A stretch of DNA of 64,000 nucleotides, taken from positions 259,670,812 to 259,734,811 of the forward strand of contig NC_134531.1 in the NCBI RefSeq assembly GCF_050624435.1. The letters run 5' to 3'. The position numbers were made by a program, and so were the translations under genes. The notes under the pieces are model-generated. The model saw only the letters and a list, made by a program, of their open reading frames with translations, was not told where the DNA came from and did not search any database. Below are positions 4,599-62,523 of the stretch, piece after piece (position 1 is the first letter of the stretch; every line of letters starts with the position of its first letter). The stretch is from Tenrec ecaudatus (taxonomy: Eukaryota > Chordata > Mammalia > Afrosoricida > Tenrecidae).

Positions 4599-5050
4599 AA
4601 TGACGGTGTTCCTGCTAAACACATAAATGTTACTTTAAATGCTTTAAATTTGAGAAGATAAACTTTGTCTCAAAATAAAACTTTCCCAAAGAAAGTTTTA
4701 AGGCATTATTTCCTCCCGATAAAATTACTTTCCCTGTAAAATAACTGCCCACCCCCTCCAAGTCCCCGGTAGCCTAAACGGTCATTTGCAGAACTGTGTG
4801 AATGTGTTAACTGAGAAAACGCTGGTAAGACACCAAAGGATAGGGAGAAAGGTGTGTGGAGATTTTGCAAACACCTAGAAATGAAAAATGAGAGGGCGCA
4901 GCTCTGAAGGCAAGTCACATTTTTCAAATCCCACACACTTTACACACTTGCCAAGTTGGAGCCCTGGAAAGGAAATGGAAGACAAATCTTTATTCAATTG
5001 TGAATATTTGGGGGTTGAGGGAGACCTAAAAGCTAATTCTAATTCTATCC

Positions 5051-9584: not shown

Positions 9585-9597
9585 AAAGCTGCTAAAT

Positions 9598-9971
9598 GAA
9601 CCCCTCAGGACGAGCGGTGAGTGACAACACCGGGAGGGAAGGGAGGGTAGAAAGGGGGAACCGATCTCGGGGATCTACACATAACCTCCTCTCTGGGGGA
9701 GGGGCAACAGGAAAGTGGGTGAAGGGACACGTGGGCAGTGTAAGATGAGATAAAATAATAGTTTATAAATTATTAAGGTTTCATGAGGGAGGGGAAATGG
9801 GGAGGGAGGGGGAGGGAAAAAGAAAATGAGCTGATTCCAGGAACCCAAGCGGAAGGCAAATTTTGAGAATGATGAGGGCAACGGATGTATAAGGGTGCTT
9901 TACTCAATTGATGTATGCATGGATTGTGATATGAGTTGTATGAGCCCCTAATAAAATGCTTTTAAAAGAAA
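9598..9971 (+). mobile_element. L1-like 3' end, subfamily A, first half of a composite insertion
   Basis: This is about 370 bp of the recurrent 3' region in sense orientation. It runs from GAACCCCTCAGGAC through a G-rich tract (9799-9816) to a polyadenylation signal, AATAAA (about 9950), and a short A-rich end. Variants such as AAGGGTGCTTTACTCAATTG match the copy at 61.1-62.5 kb rather than the half that follows. The left edge abuts the target-site duplication at 9585-9597; no matching duplication lies at 9971. Confidence 0.82.
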
Positions 9972-11028
9972 AGATATAGCATCTGGGGTCTTAAAGGCAT
10001 GAAGGTAAACAAGCGGCCATCTAGCTCAGAAGCAACAAAGCCCACATGGAAGAACGCACCAACCTGTGTGATCACAAAGTGCCAAAGGGATCAGTTATCG
10101 GGCATCAAAGAACAAAAAATCTTATCACTGGGTGCACAGCTCCATGATACGATTGCTGAAGACAAATGGGTGCATAGGAAAATGTGGTGAAGAAAGCTGA
10201 TGGTGACCTTCTATCAAAAGATATAGTGTCTGGGGTCTTAAAGGCTTGAAGGTGAACAAGCGGCCATCTAGCTTAGAAGCAACAAAACACACATGGAAGA
10301 AGCACACCAGCCTGTGCAATCATGGGGTGTCAAAGGGATCAGGTATCAGGCATCATCAGAACATATAATCTTACTATAGTGAATGAGGTGGGGAGTGCAG
10401 AGTGGAGACCTAAAGCCCATTTGTAGGCCACTGGACATCTCCTTACAGAAGGGTTTCAGAGAGGAGACGAACCAGTCAGGGTGCGATGTAACAACGATGA
10501 AAAATACAACTTTCCTCTCGTTGCTAAATGCTTCATCTCCCCCTCCCCCCACACTATCATGATCCCAATTTCTACCTTACAAATCTGACTAGACCAGAGG
10601 ATGTACACTGGTACAGATAGGAACTGGAAACACAGGGAATCCAGGGTGGATGATCCCTTCAGGACCAGTGATGAGAGTGGTGAAATCAGGAGGGTGGAGG
10701 GAAGATGGGCTGGAAAGGGGCAACTGATTACAAGGATCTACATATAACCTTCTCCCTGGGGTATGGGGAACAGAAAGGTGGGTAAAGGGAGATGTCGGAC
10801 AGTGCAAGATAAGACAAAATAATAATTTATAAATTATCAAGGGTTCATGAGGGAGGCGGAAGTGGGGAGGGAGGGGCAAAATGAGGAGCTGATGCCAGGG
10901 GCTTAAGTGGAGAGCAAATGTTTTGAGAATGATGAGGGCAATGAATGTACAAATGTTTTTTACACAATTGATGTATGTATGGCGTGTGATAAAAGTTGTA
11001 TGAGCCCCTAATAAAATGATAATTTTTA
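9972..11028 (+). mobile_element. L1-like 3' end, subfamily B, second half of a composite insertion
   Basis: Begins mid-element at GATATAGCATCTGGGG and continues to the AATAAA signal (about 11010) and an A-poor tail. A module of about 248 bp occurs twice (starts about 9972 and 10220), each with a TCTTAAAGGC...AAGCGGCCATCTAGCT core. The 3' part carries subfamily B variants (GAGAGCAAATGTTTTGAG), unlike the half before it. The right edge abuts AAAGCTGCTAAAT (11029-11041), a perfect 13-bp match to 9585-9597. The two halves therefore lie in one insertion. ORFs of 60-96 codons here are chance. Confidence 0.82.
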
Positions 11029-11535
11029 AAAGCTGCTAAATAAAGCCTGATTGAATATAAAGGACCACATATGCTTAAATAAAAAGAAAACATGTTCTAA
11101 TCTTACAGAAAAAAATTTAATTGTTGCATGTTTCTATAAAATCAGTTCAGGACAACACTTAATGTTAGAGAAAGTGGAAAATGGTCTATTTAAAATGGGT
11201 GTTTTAATATCTAGCTCACAGAGGTTGCAAGCAAAATCTCTCTCTCTCTAATAAATCCGCTGGAAATTATTTTATCCCCTTCTATATTACTAAATCTTAA
11301 CAAAATTACACAATCTGAACTTGCTGGAATATCTCCATATGCATTTTAGATACGGAAAATAAAAAAGCTATTTGTTTCATATAAAATACAGGTTTCCCAA
11401 CTCAGTTTTATAGAAAAGGGGCTCTTTTTTTCCGGGAGAAAAATTTGACAGAGAAAAATAAATGACAAGGCTGGAGTTGAGGAATCTTGGAAGCAGTCCA
11501 ATTGTTTTATCAGCTGCACCACAAGTCAAGCAAGC

Positions 11536-33985: not shown

Positions 33986-36535
33986 ATGATTCTAACTCAT
34001 GCCAAGCCTGTCCAGTTTATGAGACCATACATTTTTACAGGCACAGACACACTCTTTCTCCTGCTGTTTTAATTGTTCTGTCCCCACCTTTGATCTCGGT
34101 TCTGTCTGAGCTCATTGTTGAACTTTGCTGATGTTCTTTTCAGACAGTTCTTCTCCGATTAAATCTACCACAGGGGGAGTTTCTGATGCTTACAACTTAG
34201 AACTGTGAATCTTAATAATGCTCTGATTTGGGTAAAGAGGACTGCAGTTGGATGTAACATAATCAAAGCTACAGAAATAACAGTAAAAATTCAATTTTGG
34301 AAGATCAAAATACATAGTAGATGATTGATAAATACTGATTTAACACGTTAGTGAGAATGATAAACATGCCAGGCATACTAGGATAAAATAAAAGAATGCC
34401 TGGAAGCATTGAATAAAGAATGCATGTACTTTTGTGAGGACATAGGTATTGTTATTTATAACATAAGTTTCCTTGGAATTAATTTCTTTAATTTACATAA
34501 GTGAAAAAAATACAGTCACTTTATTCTTCTAAAATTGCACGGTGAGATGGTTTTCTCACTACATCAATTTCAGAAAATCAGGAGAAATATTCACAAAATG
34601 TTTCACTTCTTTCAAAGAGGGTTAATTATAAATATGCAAAGCAGATTGATCCAGTTCATTTGACATTGTTTTTAAAACAATGCTTTTTAAGACACTGGTG
34701 TTCTTTGAAGTGTTAGTAATTATTTCTGGGAAGGATAGGTGAATGATAAAATATGTTTGAGAAACAATGGGTTATGAAAGAGTAGCTCATGTCTCTTTAG
34801 AGAACTTCCCAGAATTTTAAAATATTGATGCGTATAATGACTGTGAAAGGAGACGTAATTAGACGCATCCAATAAATGCATTTTACCTTGTTTAAAATTG
34901 TAAATTAACTTCTGTAGAGTAATACATGGTAATTTCATGGAAAAATCTGAGAATTATTTACAAAATAGTCAGCCACTAACTTGTATAGAATCTGTTCTAG
35001 AGGTAAAATGTATTTGTTCTTTTGATTTGGCTTCATGGAGCAAATTATTTTTCCATTTAGTAGCTTATACGCAGATGACTGTAAGACTGATTGCGATCTC
35101 CACAATAGGGCAGGACCCCTTCTCTTGCTCGTGGACTCATCCTGTCCCCTTAAGTCACTTGACTGATGTGTATATTTTTATCTCCAGCGCATGTATTTCC
35201 AGGCACACACTATGCATGTAACTTATATTCTTTCTTTTCTATCTCTCCCATTTTCCCAGCGTCCTTGCATGTGTCTCTGTCTTTCTCTCTCTTTTCCCCT
35301 CTTTGATGACTGTTCTAGCCCCAGAACATGTGCACGCAACTTCCTGGAATTAGTCACCTGTGGGGCAGTTGTGAACTCAATGGCGTGCCTCAGCCCCCAG
35401 AGAGAGTCATCTCTGCTTTAGAGCCCTCCTGTCCTGCTTGCTATCCCCCAACATCGCCCCTTTAAACAGCCATCTGCTTGGAGCAGCACAGTCATTTACA
35501 TAACCACGAACTCCAGCACCAGTTCCAGAACCCAAAGGAAATCAGGAAAAACACCTAAAAGTAATGTGATAGTCTGTGCTCCGTGTCCCTCTTCCTTTTT
35601 CATCAATGTTGCGAGGATCTGTTTTTGTGAAAGGACACCCGAGGAATTTACTACAGGTGTTGTGGGTCACAGCTGGAGGATGAGACGTGGTGCCTGTTAA
35701 TAAAGGTCCAATCGAAATCTTTTTTAACGTGACCATCTTAGAAAAGTATGTGAAAGCGGCCTCACGGAAGAGCTGGGCATGGCTGGTTGAATGAAGACAT
35801 CTCCTTTAGTTCCAGGTATTATGAAGAAAAGCGTGGGGATGAATGGTTCAATCAGGAATGAGGAGAATGTGGTTGGCTAAGAATGGGACACTGAACATTG
35901 GAATTCAGCGGCCTGGCTTTGACACGAGCCGAAACCGTCACTTCGTCACAGGCTCAGTCCAATCGATCTGCACAGCAGAACAGCCCGTGGGGGTTGATTC
36001 TTTAACGTGAGTTTTTACACTTTACACACCGAGGCAGACACCTTGTTTCTGCCACATTATCTGGATCCATTTGTTCACTGATGCAGTGTCAATTTTGAAA
36101 CTTGTCCAGGCAACCAGAGGTGTCCTGGTTTCTGTCCTAAGCCATCTGGCCGCCCTCACTCAGTTACGATTTACTCGGGAAGAAAGAAAAGTAAAGCATC
36201 ATAGAGAGAAAAACAAGAGGGATGGAACTATAGGAGTCAGAAAAACTTAACTATTTAAATGAGGTCCTGTGGCCTACTCTTTTAAAAGAGCATGTTGCTG
36301 CTCTGACTGGTATTGACACTAGCTGGCTTTGAGTAGACATTTAGCTTCTCCCTGCTAAACTGTATGCATTCATTCTTAACTGTGCCTTAGACATGGGACA
36401 CACATTTTAATTAAGGAGGAGGCAGGAGAGACAGATGATAAATAAAATAGACCTTGGGTCCTACCTCAAACTGAAATAAGACGAAAACAATGGGTGAACT
36501 TTTCTGCCATTTCCAGACATAAGATTATGGCAGTT
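33986..36535. other. Unique sequence between SINEs and the U6/L1 chimera, no gene seen
   Basis: No clear repeats after the small SINE piece at about 34000. ORFs of 60-94 codons are unsupported. Confidence 0.5.
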
Positions 36536-36542
36536 TTGCCTA

Positions 36543-37941
36543 TCCTATTTTTTTAAAGATCATTTTATTGGCAGCTCTTACAGCTCTTATAACAATCCAT
36601 ACATCAATTGTATCAAGCATATTTATACATATGGTGCCATTATAATTTTCTAAATATTTACATTTTATTTGAGCCCTTGATATCAGCTCCTCTTTTTAAT
36701 CTCCCAGTCCCACCTGATGACCCCTTGATAAATTATAAATTATTATTATTTTCATATCTTACACCAACCACTGCCTCCTGTCCCCCTCGGTTTCCTCCTC
36801 ACTCCTTTTTCCACTGTCCCTCTACCCTCCTGGTATCATTACACCCATTTCTGTGCCTGATGGTCTTATCTGACCCAGATTCCATGTGCCCTGAGCTCTT
36901 ATCTTTACCTGTTTATGCGCTCTAACCCACAGTGAAAGACAGGTTTGGGGTCATGATAGTGGGGGGAGAGGAAGTCTCAAGGAACCCCAGGAATATTGTG
37001 TGTTTCATTGGTGCTATACTTCATCTGATTAACTTATCCCTTCCTTATGACCCTTCATTGAGGGGATGTTGCATTGTCTACAGATGGGTTTGGGATCTCT
37101 GACCTGACGCCTTTTGTTCTCAACGATATGTTTTTTTGTTTGTTTATTTGTTTTAGGTCTTCAATGCCTGTTACCTAATTCTGTCAACTCATGATTGCAC
37201 AGGTTGGTGTGCTTCTTCCACGTGGGCTTGTTGCTTCTCTGAAAGCTAGGTTGCCATTTGTCTAACTTCAAGCCTTTAAGACCCCAGATGCTATATCTGT
37301 TGATAGCTGGGCACCATCAGCTTTCTTCACCACATTTGCTTGTGCACCCATTTTGTCTTCAGCGACCTGCGGGGAGGGTGAGCTTCACAGAATGTCAGGT
37401 TGTTAGAACAAAGTGTTCTTGCACTGAAGAAGGGCTAGAGCAGAGGCCCAGAGTCCATCCACTTCCTCAATGTATTGTCAAATAAATGTATTTACCTATG
37501 CCAATACCTCTTTTTGTATGAATGAATATATTTATATAAGTGCACACCTATGTTTGTACCTCTGTCCATAGCTTTTCTTCCTACATCTTTCCTCTGTCTC
37601 TTTATACATTCCTCCTTCCCACCATCATACTTGCTTCTGCCTCAGAGTAATTTTTCTCAGATACACTTTTGTTGATCCAACACTCCCAGGATCTCTACAT
37701 CCTCCTCATTATTGGTTTTAATACCCTAGTTTTTCTTCTGTCTATTACATTGTTTGCTCACTGCTACCTTCTCCTGCCTTCTCCCTCTAAGTCCCTCTGG
37801 AAACTTCTGTCCCATTGCTTTTTCCTCGGGCTTGCTTCCCATACCTGTCTTGTATAGGTAGGCAAACCAACAATAACGTAGACAATACCAAAAGAAAACA
37901 AAAAATGAATAAAAAGAGAAAAAATAAATAAATAGAGAAAG
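36543..37941 (-). mobile_element. L1-like 3' end, 3' part of the U6/L1 chimera
   Basis: Read on the minus strand, this is about 1.4 kb of the L1-like 3' region that recurs through the window. It starts in a T-rich tract directly joined to the U6 3' end and ends in a degenerate A-rich tail, seen on the plus strand as the T run at about 36548. It has the module with TTAAGACCCCAGATGC on the plus strand (about 37276) and the C-rich tract near the 3' end. The order of segments matches the copy at 55.2-57.4 kb. It has no ORF of note. Divergence from the younger copy at 61-62.5 kb suggests an older insertion. Confidence 0.8.
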
Positions 37942-38042
37942 AAAAATGTGCTTCACAAATGTGAATGTCATCCTTGTACAGAGTCATGCTAATCTTCTCT
38001 GTATAATATTAATTTTAATCTATGTGCTGCCGAAGCAAGCCC
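37942..38042 (-). pseudogene. RNU6: U6 snRNA pseudogene, 5' part of a U6/L1 chimera
   Basis: The minus strand reads as a nearly full-length U6 spliceosomal RNA (about 101 bases against about 107 in functional U6). The 5' stem-loop GCTTCGGCAGCACATA is intact. The ACAGAGA box, which pairs with the 5' splice site, lies at 37996-38002 and is followed by AGATTAGCATG. The 3' part (AAGGATGACA, then TGTGAAGC) is recognisable but several bases are changed or lost before the terminal T run. The U6 5' end abuts TTGCCTA (38043-38049), which recurs at 36536-36542 beyond the L1 part. No TATA box or proximal sequence element is visible just upstream of the 5' end, so this is a retrocopy unlikely to be transcribed by Pol III. 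The identity is very secure; lack of function is inferred. Confidence 0.93.
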
Positions 38043-38114
38043 TTGCCTAATTTTTCTTAAAGCACACCATATCACCCCCAACTAACAGGTTTGTTGTTGT
38101 TGTTGTTGTTTTTA

Positions 38115-38160
38115 AAGTACTATGGGTCAGAATAACAATTGACTCCATGACAGTTGAAGG
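38115..38160 (+). mobile_element. Possible AfroSINE 3' end fragment
   Basis: ACTATGGGTCAGAATAACAA and TTGACTCCATGACAG resemble the AfroSINE tail; it follows a short TTG repeat (38091-38110). Too short to be sure. Confidence 0.35.
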
Positions 38161-38315
38161 GTGACCAATTAAAAACAAAAGAGCTCCCTCCTTGCTTTAT
38201 AAGGTATTTTCAACTTTGTTTTTGTTTAGTAGAAGGGAATCCTGGATTTCTCACATCAAAAAAACAAAAAAACAAAACAGATGTGAAGAACTCCCAGATA
38301 CAAAGGAAGCGTTTT

Positions 38316-38318
<3 letters not shown>

Positions 38319-38352
<34 letters not shown>
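38319..38352 (+). repeat. (AC)n microsatellite
   Basis: 34 bases of pure AC. Confidence 0.98.
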
Positions 38353-38354
<2 letters not shown>

Positions 38355-39914
38355 CACATGAAAGCAGTAAGGACAAGTTTCTTTTGACCTAATTCCTCTA
38401 GATAATATCCTTAAGACTCTTGATTTTGGGTTGCTTTTCCATAAAAAATTCACAGATAGGCTTGAAAACAGTATCTGCTTCACGGCAGCTTCCTGTAAAT
38501 ACATCTCTCCAAACAGCGACGTTTACTAGCCTAACAATCGCCGGTGTTCATCATGTAAAGACTGTTATTCCTTGTCCTTGGACGCTTACAATCTGTTTCT
38601 TGTAAAGTTGAGATGAGGTTGTTTTCTCATGTTGAAAGCACTGACAGCTGTAATTACGCCTCCCACTACTACAGGGTCCGTTTCCCAACACTCAGCTACA
38701 CACTGTACACAGCATGAATCTATCAGGGCTTTCAAAGATGAGAATGCATGCCATGCTTTCACCCGCTCAAGAAAGCTCCACTCTCAACAACAGACATAGC
38801 AGAATGATTTTTATATTAAACTTCATTCAAATGAAGCCATAAAGACATCGTTATTTTGCCCTGTGTTCAGCTCTTAGAAATCATCTCTGTGAACACGTGG
38901 GAAAGAGTGGTGCCCCTTTCCATATTCAAGTCCCACTTACAAGCCAAATGAATTCCTCTCACAGGTAATCCAATCTGAATTCCTGAGTTAAAATTTCATT
39001 TACTACCAGTGATAGCAATCTTCTTAGTAATAGCAGGTTTAAAATATGAATACACATTTAATAAAATTAAATGATGTCCATTAAAAGTGCCTAGTACAAG
39101 GTAAACAGTTGGTAATCTTACAATGCTAGTTGGTAAACTTAAAATGCTAGAAAAAAACTACCTTATATGCCTCCTGAACTTTTCAATATTTCTTTTAAAT
39201 GGTGCAGATCAGGTAAGACGAGTTAGTTAAGACAAATAGTCCAAATGATTAACATGGGAAAATATTCACAGCTGATCAAATTTTAGACAGCCCCTTACTT
39301 ACTGATTTGTATACATGTATCTTCCCAAATATATATGTATATAAATAATGTATGTAAATATTATATATATGTGTACTTTCAGTTTCAAAAACATTCAGCC
39401 TGGGGATCATGTCATATATTTATCCTTGTATGCTTAATGTACAATATTGTCAAACACACACAGGCATAGCAAATGCTTCATAAATATGCTGGAAATAGAC
39501 TATTCACTGAAATTAGTTCTCCACAACCCCTTTCTTTCCTGGGTGTAAGGTAAGAAGACAACAAACAGAAAACTACCCAAGCTTTTATCACTTATCTCCC
39601 TATTAGTTTTTCCCTTTTTCTAAGATGTGTAGATGTAAGCACCAGAATGGAAGGACTGAACTTAGGGTTAGCTTTTTTCTTTGGTGAGAGGACTATTGAG
39701 AAACAGAAAAAAAAAACTATTATGTGGGCAGAATTTTAAGATAAAAAACTTGTTTTATAGCTCATTGAAGATCATCTAAATCATCAAAATTTCCCTAGTC
39801 ATCTAATTTTTAAACATAAAAGACATTATATAGATGGTCTCATATATTATAACCAAGTATATAAGAGCACACACAAATACAAGAGCATGTGAGAGAGTGT
39901 GTGTGTATGTATGG

Positions 39915-51599: not shown

Positions 51600-52020
51600 A
51601 ACAATTGCAGCATACCAACTGCTAGGCAGTCTATTCTGACTCATAGAGACCCTAGAGGACAGGGTCCTATAGGTCATAGAGACCCTAGACGACAGGGTCC
51701 TATAGGTCATAGAGACCCTAGACGACAGGGTCCTATAGGTCATAGAGACCCTAGAGGACAGGGTCCTATAGGTCATAGAGACCCTAGAGGACAGGGTCCT
51801 ATAGGTCATAGTGACCCTAGACAACAGGGTCCTATAGATCATAGAGACCCTAGACGACAGGGTCCTATAGGTCATAGAGACCCTAGAAGACAGGGTCCTA
51901 TAGGTCATAGAGACCCTAGAGGACAGGGTCCTATAGGTCAAAGAAACCCTAGAGGACAGAGTAGAAATACCCTGCTGAGCTTCCACAATTGTACATCTGT
52001 TTGCGGGGTCATCGTTCACT
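51600..52020 (-). mobile_element. AfroSINE carrying an internal minisatellite
   Basis: Antisense AfroSINE tail TCTATTCTGACTCATAGAGA lies at about 51630. The tail then repeats (see 51641-51960), and after the array ACAGAGTAGAAATACCCTGC resumes the expected SINE order. Beyond about 52000 the head is too diverged to place. Confidence 0.7.
51641..51960. repeat. 33-bp minisatellite, 9 full units plus one partial
   Basis: Nine complete 33-bp units start at 51641 and run to 51937, with a tenth partial unit to 51960. They are in perfect register with no indels. The unit starts TCATAGAGACCCTAGA, then a variable pair (GG, CG, CA or AG), then ACAGGGTCCTATAGG. It derives from the antisense AfroSINE tail. 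Because 33 is divisible by 3 and the unit has no stop in two frames, both strands are open (146 codons plus, 162 codons minus), with 11-residue repeats such as HRDPRRQGPIG. No evidence of translation. Confidence 0.97.
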
Positions 52021-55200: not shown

Positions 55201-56350
55201 TTTGTTTTCTTTTTGAATTGCCTCATATTTTTAAAATCATTTTGTTGGGGCTTGTACAACTCTTATCACAATCCATACATACAACCATTGTGTCAAGCAC
55301 ATTTGTATATTTGTTGCCATCATTGTTTTGGAAACATTTTCATTCTACTTGAGCCCTTGGTATCAGCTCCTCATTTTTCCCTCCCTCCCCGTGCTCCCTC
55401 CATCACAAACCATTGATAATTTATAAATTATTATTATTTTGTCGTGTCTTACACTGTCCAATATCTCGTTTACCTACTTTTCTGTTGTCTGTCCCCCAGG
55501 GAGGAGATTATCTGTGGATCCTTGTGATTGATTGCCCCTTTCTACCCCACCTTAACTCCACCCTCCCAGTTCGCCACTCTCACCACTGGTGCTGAGGGAT
55601 CATATGTCCTGAATTCCCTGTGTTTCCACTTCCTATCTGTACCAGTGTACATGCTCTGGCCCTGCCAGATTTGTAGGGTGGAATGGGGATCATGATAGTA
55701 TGGAGAGAAAGCATTAAAGAAATAGAGGGAAGTTTTATGTTTCATCATTGCTACACTACACCCTGACTGGATTGTCTCCTCCCCACAACCTTTCTGTAAG
55801 GGGAAGTCCAGTTGCCTACAATGGCCCTTAGGTCCCCGCTCTGCACTTCCCAGCCCCATTCACAATGATATGATTTTTTTGTTCCTTTATGCCTGATACC
55901 TGATCCCTTCTACACCTCGTGATCACACCGGCTGGTGTGCTTCTTCCATGTGGGCTTGGTTGCTTCTCAGCTAGATGGTCACTTGTTTATCTTCAAGCCT
56001 TTAAGATCCCAGACACTATATTTTTTAATAGAGGACACCATCAGCTTTCTTCACCACATTTGCTTATGCACCTGCTTTGTCTTCAATGATCATATTGTGA
56101 AGGTGAGCAGCATGGAAGGCCAGTTTAATAGAACAAAGTGTTCTTACATTGAGGGAGCATTTGAGTGGAAGCCCAATGTCCTTCTGCTACCTTAATACTA
56201 AACCTATACATGTATGCACACAGATCTATTTCCCCATAGTCATATATAAATATATTTACATATATATGTGCCTGTATTTAGACCCCTATAAATGCTCTTT
56301 GCCTCCTAGTTCTTTCCTCTATTTCCTTTTACTTTCCTCTTGTCCCAGGG
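55201..56350 (-). mobile_element. L1-like 3' end, 3' half of a 5'-inverted insertion
   Basis: On the minus strand this is the 3' half of the recurrent L1-like region, ending at a T-rich stretch on the plus strand (about 55201-55245). It has a single copy of the internal module (about 55920-56060) and the C-rich tract at 55375-55400. It joins at about 56350 to sequence from further upstream in the same element but in the opposite orientation. The left flank (55187-55200) nearly matches the right flank of the whole insertion (57354-57367), 12 of 14 bases. Confidence 0.8.
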
Positions 56351-57356
56351 ATACATATGCTAGCCAACAAAAAAGAAGGGATGGCGGGAAAGAAAAAAGA
56401 AACAAATTGTTTGTATCTCTACAGGGAAAGAGGGACTAAATTTCAACCCGGTGCTCCAAGATGTGAATGCAACATACCGGCATGAAGCACGGAACCAGCC
56501 AGTAAAGAGGTCTGAGGGGCCAGCCCCAATCCCAACTACCTGGACAGCCACCCCTCCCCCAATAAGAATTCACTTCAGAGGACAGCACTGAAGCTACTGC
56601 TTAGAGAGTGGGACATGTCTTGTCAGAGCACAGAGGAGCAAATGAAGGTGGAGGAAGAGAGATTGGAGCACATCTTGGCCCACCAAGCCCTGAGAACAAT
56701 ATCTCTGCTCAGAGTTTCCAATGCACAGAGAGGACCACATGGCCAGCCCCACTATGAGACACAACATCACTCACTGACCCATAGCCCTAAGGGGGACAAC
56801 ACTAAAAACACAGTGTGGGAAATGCACCCCATCTGGCCATACCACACCAAGGCAAAACACTAAGGGTGTGCAACAGAACAGCAAGGGGAACAGAGCAAGG
56901 AAATCCCAAGGGAATACCAAAAATAGACTTTGGGGCCAGGGTGTGACACCCCATCAGTCTCAGCCAGAAAACACTCCTATAGGTCAACAAACAAACCTTG
57001 AACTATTTACAGGCTTTTCTCTTTTTTGTCATTGTTTTTTGTTGTTGTTTTGTTTCTTTTGTTGCTTTGTTTTCTGTGTCTTGATTTGGTGCATATTATT
57101 ATCTCTGCAGGTCTATCTATATAATATAGGTGGTATAAACAATCTGGAGGATAAAATATCCAGATAGACAGTTCTGGGGGGACATGGGAGAGGAGGAAAC
57201 AGGGGAAAGGAAGTGGGTGTTAACAAACCCAGGGACAAAGGAACAACAAGTGATCCAAAATCAGTGGCAAGGATGGTGTAACAGACCTGCTAGGGTTTCA
57301 TCAAGGGCAAATGTAATGGGGGAATTACTGAAACCCAAATGAAGGCAGAGCATGAG
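56351..57356 (+). mobile_element. Inverted 5' half of the same L1-like insertion
   Basis: Plus-strand sense segment of about 1 kb containing a T-rich tract (57007-57085) and ending with ...GGCAGAGCATGAGA. Its last 250 bp align, in order, with the part of the U6/L1 chimera just upstream of the sequence that starts the other half, so the two halves are contiguous in the parent. No ORF with L1 ORF2 motifs is seen, so this looks like a long non-coding 3' region or a non-autonomous relative. ORFs of 82 and 99 codons are unsupported. Confidence 0.72.
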
Positions 57357-57369
57357 AATATATTTCTAG

Positions 57370-57485
57370 CCCAGTGGTTCCCTAAGTTGAACAGCATCAG
57401 AACCATAGAAAGGGCCTATGAAAAATAAAACCGCATTTCTAAAGATGAAGGTCTTGGTTATGATCTAGGAATTTACCATACTTTT
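57370..57485 (+). mobile_element. MER5A-like hAT element remnant
   Basis: Opens CCCAGTGGTTCCCTAAG and continues CAGCATCAGAACCATAGAAA, GGGCCT; the order fits MER5A, a short non-autonomous hAT-Charlie element. It lies beside the 5'-inverted L1-like insertion. Confidence 0.5.
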
Positions 57486-61131: not shown

Positions 61132-62523
61132 GTAGTGGGATGGGAGGAAGGCGAAGGAAATAGAGGAAAGGAGTAGGAGGCAAAGGGCATACAGAGAAGC
61201 CTAAATACAGACATGTACATACGCAAATATATTTATTATTGTGAGGGAAATAGAGCTATGTGCATATATTTATGGGTTCAGTAGTAGGGTGGCAGGTGGA
61301 CATTGGGCCTCCTCACGCATACTTCCTCAATACAATAGCACCTTGCCCTGCTAAACGGTCACTCCATGATACCCACCTTCCCGACATGATCACTGAAGAC
61401 AAACGTGTGTGTAAGCAAACGTGGTGAAGAAAGCTGATGGTGCCCGGCTATCAAAAAGATATTGTGTCTGGGGTCTTAAAGGCTTGAAGGCAAACAAGAG
61501 GCCATCTAGCTCAGAAGCAACAAAGCCCACACAGAAGAAGCACACAGCCTAAGTGAATACAAGGTGTTGAATGTACCAGGTAGCAGACACCAAGGAACAA
61601 AAACCACCATTGTGTGATCACATTCCTCACATAAACGCTGAAAACGAATGTGTGCATAAGCAAGTGTGGTGAAGAAGGCTGATGGTGCCTGGTTATTGAG
61701 AGATATAGCATCTGGGAACTTACAGGCTTGAAAGTAAACAAGCGGCCATCTATTCCAGAAGCAACAAAGCCCACACGGAAGCGGCACACCAACATGTGTG
61801 ATCGTAGAGGGCAGAGGGGACCAGGTCTCAAACAACAAAGGCGGTGGGGCGGGGGGGGGGGGGAATCACATCACCGTGAATGAGGGGGAGTGCGTGATGG
61901 GGACCCAATGCCCATCTGTAGATATCTGGACATCCCTTGCAGAGGGGTAGTGTTGAGGAGATGAGTCACTCAGGGTTCAGTGTAGCAACAATGAAACTCA
62001 AAACCTTCCTCTAGTTCCTGAACGCTTTCTCCCCTCCCAATTATCATGATCCCAATTCTATCTTGCGGACCTTTGTAGACCAGAGGATATACAGCGGTGC
62101 AGTAGGGATCTGGAAACACAGGGCATCTAGGACAGATGAACCCCTCAGGACCAGCAGTGGGAGTGGCGACACCGGGAGGGAAGGGGAGTAGAAAGGGAGA
62201 ACCTATCTTCGGGATCTATGTGTAACCTCCTCTCTGGGAGATGGCCAATGGGAAGGTGGGTGAGGGGAGACACCGGGCAGTGTAAGATAAGATAAACTAA
62301 TTATTTATAAACTATTAAGGGTACAGGGGGAAGGGGCGTGTAGGGAGGGAGGGGGAGGGAATAAAAAGAAAATGAGCTGATTCCAGAAACTCAAGTGGAA
62401 GGTGAATTTTGAGAATGATTAGGGCAATAAATGCATAAAGGTGCTTTACTCAATTGATGTATGTGTGGGTTGTGATAAGAGTTGTATGAGCCCCAATAAA
62501 AAGATTTATTAAAAAAAAAAAAA
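61132..62523 (+). mobile_element. L1-like 3' end insertion with A tail, youngest-looking copy
   Basis: About 1.39 kb in sense orientation, 5' truncated at TAGTGGGATGGG. It has two tandem modules of about 244 bp (starts about 61458 and 61702), a 13-G run (61851-61863), a four-run G tract (62343-62359), an AATAAA signal (about 62497) and a near-pure A tail. The TSD is AGAAAGCACGTTAGA at 61117-61131 against AGAAAGCACCTTAGA at 62524-62538 (14 of 15). An A tail and a well-kept TSD point to a fairly recent, L1-type insertion. Overlapping ORFs of 106 and 110 codons on the minus strand are not coding. Confidence 0.88.

Follow-up and report, generated by a model that had tools for sequence, protein, structure and literature searches.

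A full-length U6 pseudogene joined to an L1-like 3' end in a tenrec genome, probably a single chimeric insertion

Described U6 chimeras and the tenrec locus

Chimeric retrocopies in which a copy of the U6 snRNA is followed by a 5'-truncated L1, with target-site duplications (TSDs) flanking the whole, have been described as a class of insertions (Doucet et al., 2015, PMC4476161). For the human genome, 180 U6/L1 loci have been reported, in which the U6 part is typically full length and 98.3% sense, and the same work gives two published routes by which U6 and L1 are joined, a template switch and an RNA ligation that takes place before insertion (Law & Burns, 2026, PMC13174262). Chimeras of U6 with L2, RTE-like elements and SINEs are also described, in platypus and Anolis, and for platypus nearly all of the U6 parts are given as 5'-truncated, with TSDs of 1-9 bp in 72.5% of 40 (PMC4476161). 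Among afrotherians, the 'Repeat' column of Table 2 in that paper counts U6 copies that go with retrotransposons: 9 in Echinops telfairi, 10 in Loxodonta africana and 1 in Procavia capensis.

The locus described here lies on the minus strand of a window of 64,000 nucleotides (the whole stretch of DNA that was analysed) from Tenrec ecaudatus, and it is probably an ordinary old member of the known class of U6/L1 chimeric retrocopies. A sequence-only reading of the window had suggested that it documents a U6/L1-type event in an afrotherian. The locus does fit the class, but such an event is not new for the group, since U6 copies with retrotransposons are recorded in tenrec, elephant and hyrax, and on the counts of Table 2 the extension of the class to Afrotheria is already in print as far as the 'Repeat' column goes (PMC4476161).

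Read on the minus strand, CTTT followed by AAGAAAAATTAGGCAA is succeeded by the U6 copy, a T-rich joint, about 1.3 kb more of the repeat 3' end, AATAAA, a short A-run and AAAAAAATAGGATAGGCAA, as listed below together with the copy of the repeat that was used for comparison.

38043..38058, minus strand: 5' TSD copy AAGAAAAATTAGGCAA, with CTTT directly 5' of it; putative cleavage site TTT/AAGAAAA
37937..38042, minus strand: U6 snRNA pseudogene, full length, in the same sense as the L1-like part; match to RF00026
37890..37946, minus strand: T-rich joint, in which the terminal T-run of U6 grades into T-rich sequence of the L1-like element
36555..37941, minus strand: 3' end of an L1-like retrotransposon, probably 5'-truncated (a putative long 3' UTR), with AATAAA at 36569-36564
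36536..36554, minus strand: short A-run and 3' TSD copy AAAAAAATAGGATAGGCAA
55225..57370, minus strand: comparison copy of the repeat, its 5' part apparently inverted; outer limits set by eye

The U6 copy and the enclosing duplication

The nearly complete minus-strand U6 that had been proposed was confirmed by a match of the Rfam family RF00026 (U6) to 38042-37937, with 73.5 bits (E 9.9e-17) over the full model (positions 1-105 of 105). This is the sole Rfam match in the 64-kb window at the gathering threshold, and relaxing the cutoff to E 0.1 over 35500-39500 (one overlapping same-clan match omitted) brought up no further family. Alignment to human U6 covered 101 bases with 18 substitutions and gaps of 1 and 5 bases; 11 of the substitutions are transitions and 7 are transversions, 6 of the 18 being of the CpG type, and the K2P distance is 0.207. 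Judged by its sequence, the U6 copy is an old pseudogene, and nothing seen at the locus, which is old and decayed, suggests a function. The possibility of a functional U6 gene was considered and rejected on account of the decay (18 substitutions in 101 bases) and because no TATA-like motif is present at about -35 to -20 upstream of the copy.

The motif TTGCCTA, which had been pointed out at both outer edges, is present at 36536-36542 and at 38043-38049, and it forms part of a duplication longer than had been noted. On the minus strand the pair reads AAGAAAAATTAGGCAA (38058-38043) versus AAAAAAATAGGATAGGCAA (36554-36536) and is imperfect, with a gap of 1 base in the A-run and a gap of 4 bases. 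This single pair, of about 16 bp, lies outside U6 and the L1-like part together, and nucleotide 1 of U6 abuts the 5' copy directly. The alignment of the outer 16-mer to the 3' edge gives a score of 17. In sets of 20000 each, this score was equalled by 6 random 16-mers from the window and by 198 shuffled versions of that A-rich 16-mer. When only the final 7 bases had to match exactly, the counts per 20000 were 87 for random 16-mers and 699 for shuffles, and an earlier unanchored TSD test had given a chance frequency of 3/5000. In view of these random and shuffle counts, the duplication beats chance, yet it is not overwhelming by itself.

Comparison of the upstream flank with the U6/L1 joint gives a score of -13, and comparison of the U6 3' end with the 3' flank (after the A-run) gives -7, against 17 for the outer pair, so that the inner duplications expected from two sequential insertions are not seen. 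The cut in the flank would read TTT/AAGAAAA, a target site of the L1 endonuclease type and one base off the consensus; the L1-endonuclease-like flank claimed earlier can be read directly from the locus.

The repeat and the position of the joint

The element at 36543-37941 had been called recurrent and L1-like, and the same 3' end is indeed found in seven other copies within the 64-kb window, none of which carries a U6 at the Rfam gathering score. These copies lie at 5.0-5.3, 9.7-10.0, 10.0-11.0, 23.7-23.9, 51.2-51.4, 55.2-56.2 and 61.3-62.5 kb and share 63-77% identity with the chimera per aligned piece; for the copy at 55.2 kb, the divergence from the L1-like part of the chimera is 0.276 over 963 aligned bases. 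AATAAA is present in 5 of the 8 aligned ends and in a decayed form in the other 3; downstream of it stands A-rich sequence or a short run of A. A TSD scan of the 8 ends, run without a null and including the chimera, gave a 15-bp duplication with one mismatch for the copy at 62.5 kb, a weaker one (13/15) for the copy at 51.2 kb and an exact 13-bp duplication enclosing the pair at 9.6-11.0 kb, and nothing convincing for the ends at 5045, 9973 (taken alone), 23903 and 55225. Allowing up to 3 mismatches, a degenerate pattern of the repeat occurs at 4 places in the window; in viral contigs and in prokaryotic genome contigs the pattern had zero matches, as expected for a mammalian repeat.

Some further features of the window deserve mention in their own right. 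The pair at 9585-11041 consists of two truncated L1-like 3' ends that follow one another head to tail and share a single enclosing 13-bp duplication, AAAGCTGCTAAAT (9585-9597 and 11029-11041). It could have arisen when one copy was inserted, nested, into an A-tail, or when reverse transcription jumped from one L1 RNA template to another. The L1-like 3' end also holds a tandem duplication with a block of about 160-220 bp, seen at 9969-10373 and 61374-61838 (copies 85% and 75% identical). An AfroSINE-like consensus aligns to the window in 17 pieces at E up to 0.01 (best 1e-26), as would suit an afrotherian source, and matches to it stand at both edges of a 33-bp minisatellite at 51641-51959 (9.7 copies, 95% matches), which may have grown from a SINE tail.

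No ORF2-like or other L1 coding frame was noticed by eye among 141 stop-to-stop frames of at least 70 aa, and 4 of these frames, at the 55-57 kb copy, matched no Pfam family. Because no L1 coding sequence was recognised and because RTEs, not L1, have been called the dominant system in afrotherians (PMC5322556), we infer the L1 label from the 3' end and the marks of integration: AATAAA, the A-run, 5' truncation, the apparent 5' inversion in another copy, and TSDs some 13-16 bp long together with the cleavage site, suggest an L1-like element. The proposal that the chimera itself supports the L1 nature of the repeat carries little weight for these two reasons, and also because U6 is found joined to L2, RTE-like elements and SINEs (PMC4476161).

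The observation that U6 runs into a T-rich point of the repeat held, while the boundary that had been placed at 37942 shifts: the T-run of U6 and the T-rich stretch merge over 37946-37890 and the Rfam match carries U6 to 37937, so that the joint can be placed only to within a few bases. The repeat 3' end joined to U6 is about 1.4 kb long, and the joint is without an A-tail. From 37945, inside the U6 T-run, 321 bases of the chimera are colinear with 57015-57355 read on the plus strand; the remainder of that copy, at 55.2-56.4 kb, lies on the minus strand. Without the T-rich part this match scores 80, which was reached by 10 of 1930 random 380-base segments of the window (2000 drawn minus those touching the chimera); all 10 start at 55991-57106, that is, within the same 55-57 kb copy. 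The simplest reading takes 55225-57370 as a copy that underwent a twin-priming-type inversion of its 5' part. The sequence between its two parts, 56360-57014, has no counterpart elsewhere in the window (E up to 0.1) and, from its position, should be element sequence upstream of the T-rich stretch. Since the 55-57 kb copy has the T-rich stretch and appears by position to continue upstream of it, the joint probably marks a truncation within the element; if 56360-57014 does belong to the element, the repeat of the chimera breaks off inside it, close to the upstream limit of the T-rich stretch.

All 10 of the TTTT starts in the 1400 bases of the chimera's repeat part fall within the first 70 bases, and in the inverted segment a TTTT lies within 6 bases at 22 of 935 positions. 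The clustering of TTTT at the joint fits pairing to an oligo-U tail, as it also fits ligation, and it is one case that was noticed afterwards.

Origin of the chimera and comparison with known systems

We consider that the locus arose by one target-primed insertion of U6 and a 5'-truncated L1-like 3' end by L1-type machinery, whichever the joining route (probability about 0.88). The single chimeric insertion put forward by the sequence-only reading is favoured by the full-length sense U6, the joint without an A-tail, the one enclosing TSD and the absence of an inner duplication, and the recurrent nature of the L1-like part and an architecture like that of published U6/L1 chimeras may be counted on the same side. 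Against a single insertion count the 4-base gap in the TSD and the equal scores of 198 of the 20000 shuffles; the failure to recognise an L1 coding sequence and the reported RTE dominance in afrotherians count against an insertion of the L1 type. The divergences of the two parts (K2P 0.207 for U6, 0.276 pairwise for the L1-like part) would be compatible with one old event and are no proof of it. In such an insertion, an endonuclease nick at the TTT/AAGAAAA site would be followed by priming on the poly(A) tail and by reverse transcription across the 3' UTR of about 1.4 kb up to the U-rich stretch, after which U6 would serve as the template, from the oligo-U at its 3' end as far as nucleotide 1, and closure would leave one TSD.

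Two separate insertions, by which a U6 pseudogene came to lie against an L1-like 3' end by chance, might be envisaged in a window where adjoining or nested copies of the repeat do exist (9585-11041); this is nevertheless very unlikely, as the sole TSD pair encloses both parts, the joint is without an A-tail, and the scores of -13 (flank and joint) and -7 (U6 end and 3' flank) stand against 17 for the outer pair. Still more improbable is that the copy belongs to a family of U6-headed composite elements amplified as a unit, given that the 64 kb contain one U6 at the gathering score and seven other ends of the repeat without U6, and that human U6/L1 loci are reported usually to propagate no further (PMC13174262).

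Within a single insertion the question is how the two RNAs came to be joined. A template switch, which had been named as the origin of the locus, is a published route but one of two, RNA ligation being the other (PMC13174262). We place a template switch, in which A-rich cDNA would pair with the oligo-U tail of U6, slightly above even odds, leaning to it slightly because A-rich cDNA made from the U-rich stretch could pair with the U6 oligo-U end; prior ligation of the U6 RNA with a piece of L1 RNA falls slightly below even odds among single insertions. According to the ligation model, which over all readings keeps a substantial though minority share, U6 RNA and a fragment of L1 RNA would be ligated first (RtcB type) and the fused RNA then copied in one pass; the route is given in PMC13174262 and described in a review (PMC13247085), both of which cite Moldovan et al. 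(2019). It would give an identical anatomy, and the two routes are inseparable at this locus, where nothing demands ligation and a joint in U-rich sequence is explained at least equally well by cDNA that paired with the U6 tail. A more speculative idea, which we regard as unlikely, is that the U6 oligo-U tail lands preferentially on U-rich stretches in long L1 3' UTRs, with the result that U6/L1 joints of the lineage cluster at the T-rich stretch; if true, such clustering would speak, at the level of sequence, for template switching assisted by pairing and not for ligation.

The locus adds one old case to the class; it could serve as a presence/absence marker among relatives and as a single observation of the place at which U6 is joined to L1 RNA, here a U-rich stretch. 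Like the mammalian U6/L1 chimeras described in PMC4476161 and PMC13174262, it has a full-length sense U6 placed 5' of an L1-like 3' end that is probably 5'-truncated, an enclosing TSD and a cleavage site of the L1 type. It differs from the set in PMC4476161, for which 97.5% identity to U6 was required, in being more diverged (18 substitutions in 101 bases), and from the published U6/L1 chimeras in its partner, the long 3' UTR-like end of an L1-like family in which no coding part was seen. With the afrotherian U6 copies of Table 2 in PMC4476161 it shares the class, the table giving counts only and not the partner element. Similarly to the chimeras of platypus and Anolis, U6 is joined here to a non-LTR retrotransposon; unlike those of platypus, with their 5'-truncated U6 and TSDs mostly of 1-9 bp (PMC4476161), the tenrec locus has a complete U6 and a TSD of about 16 bp.
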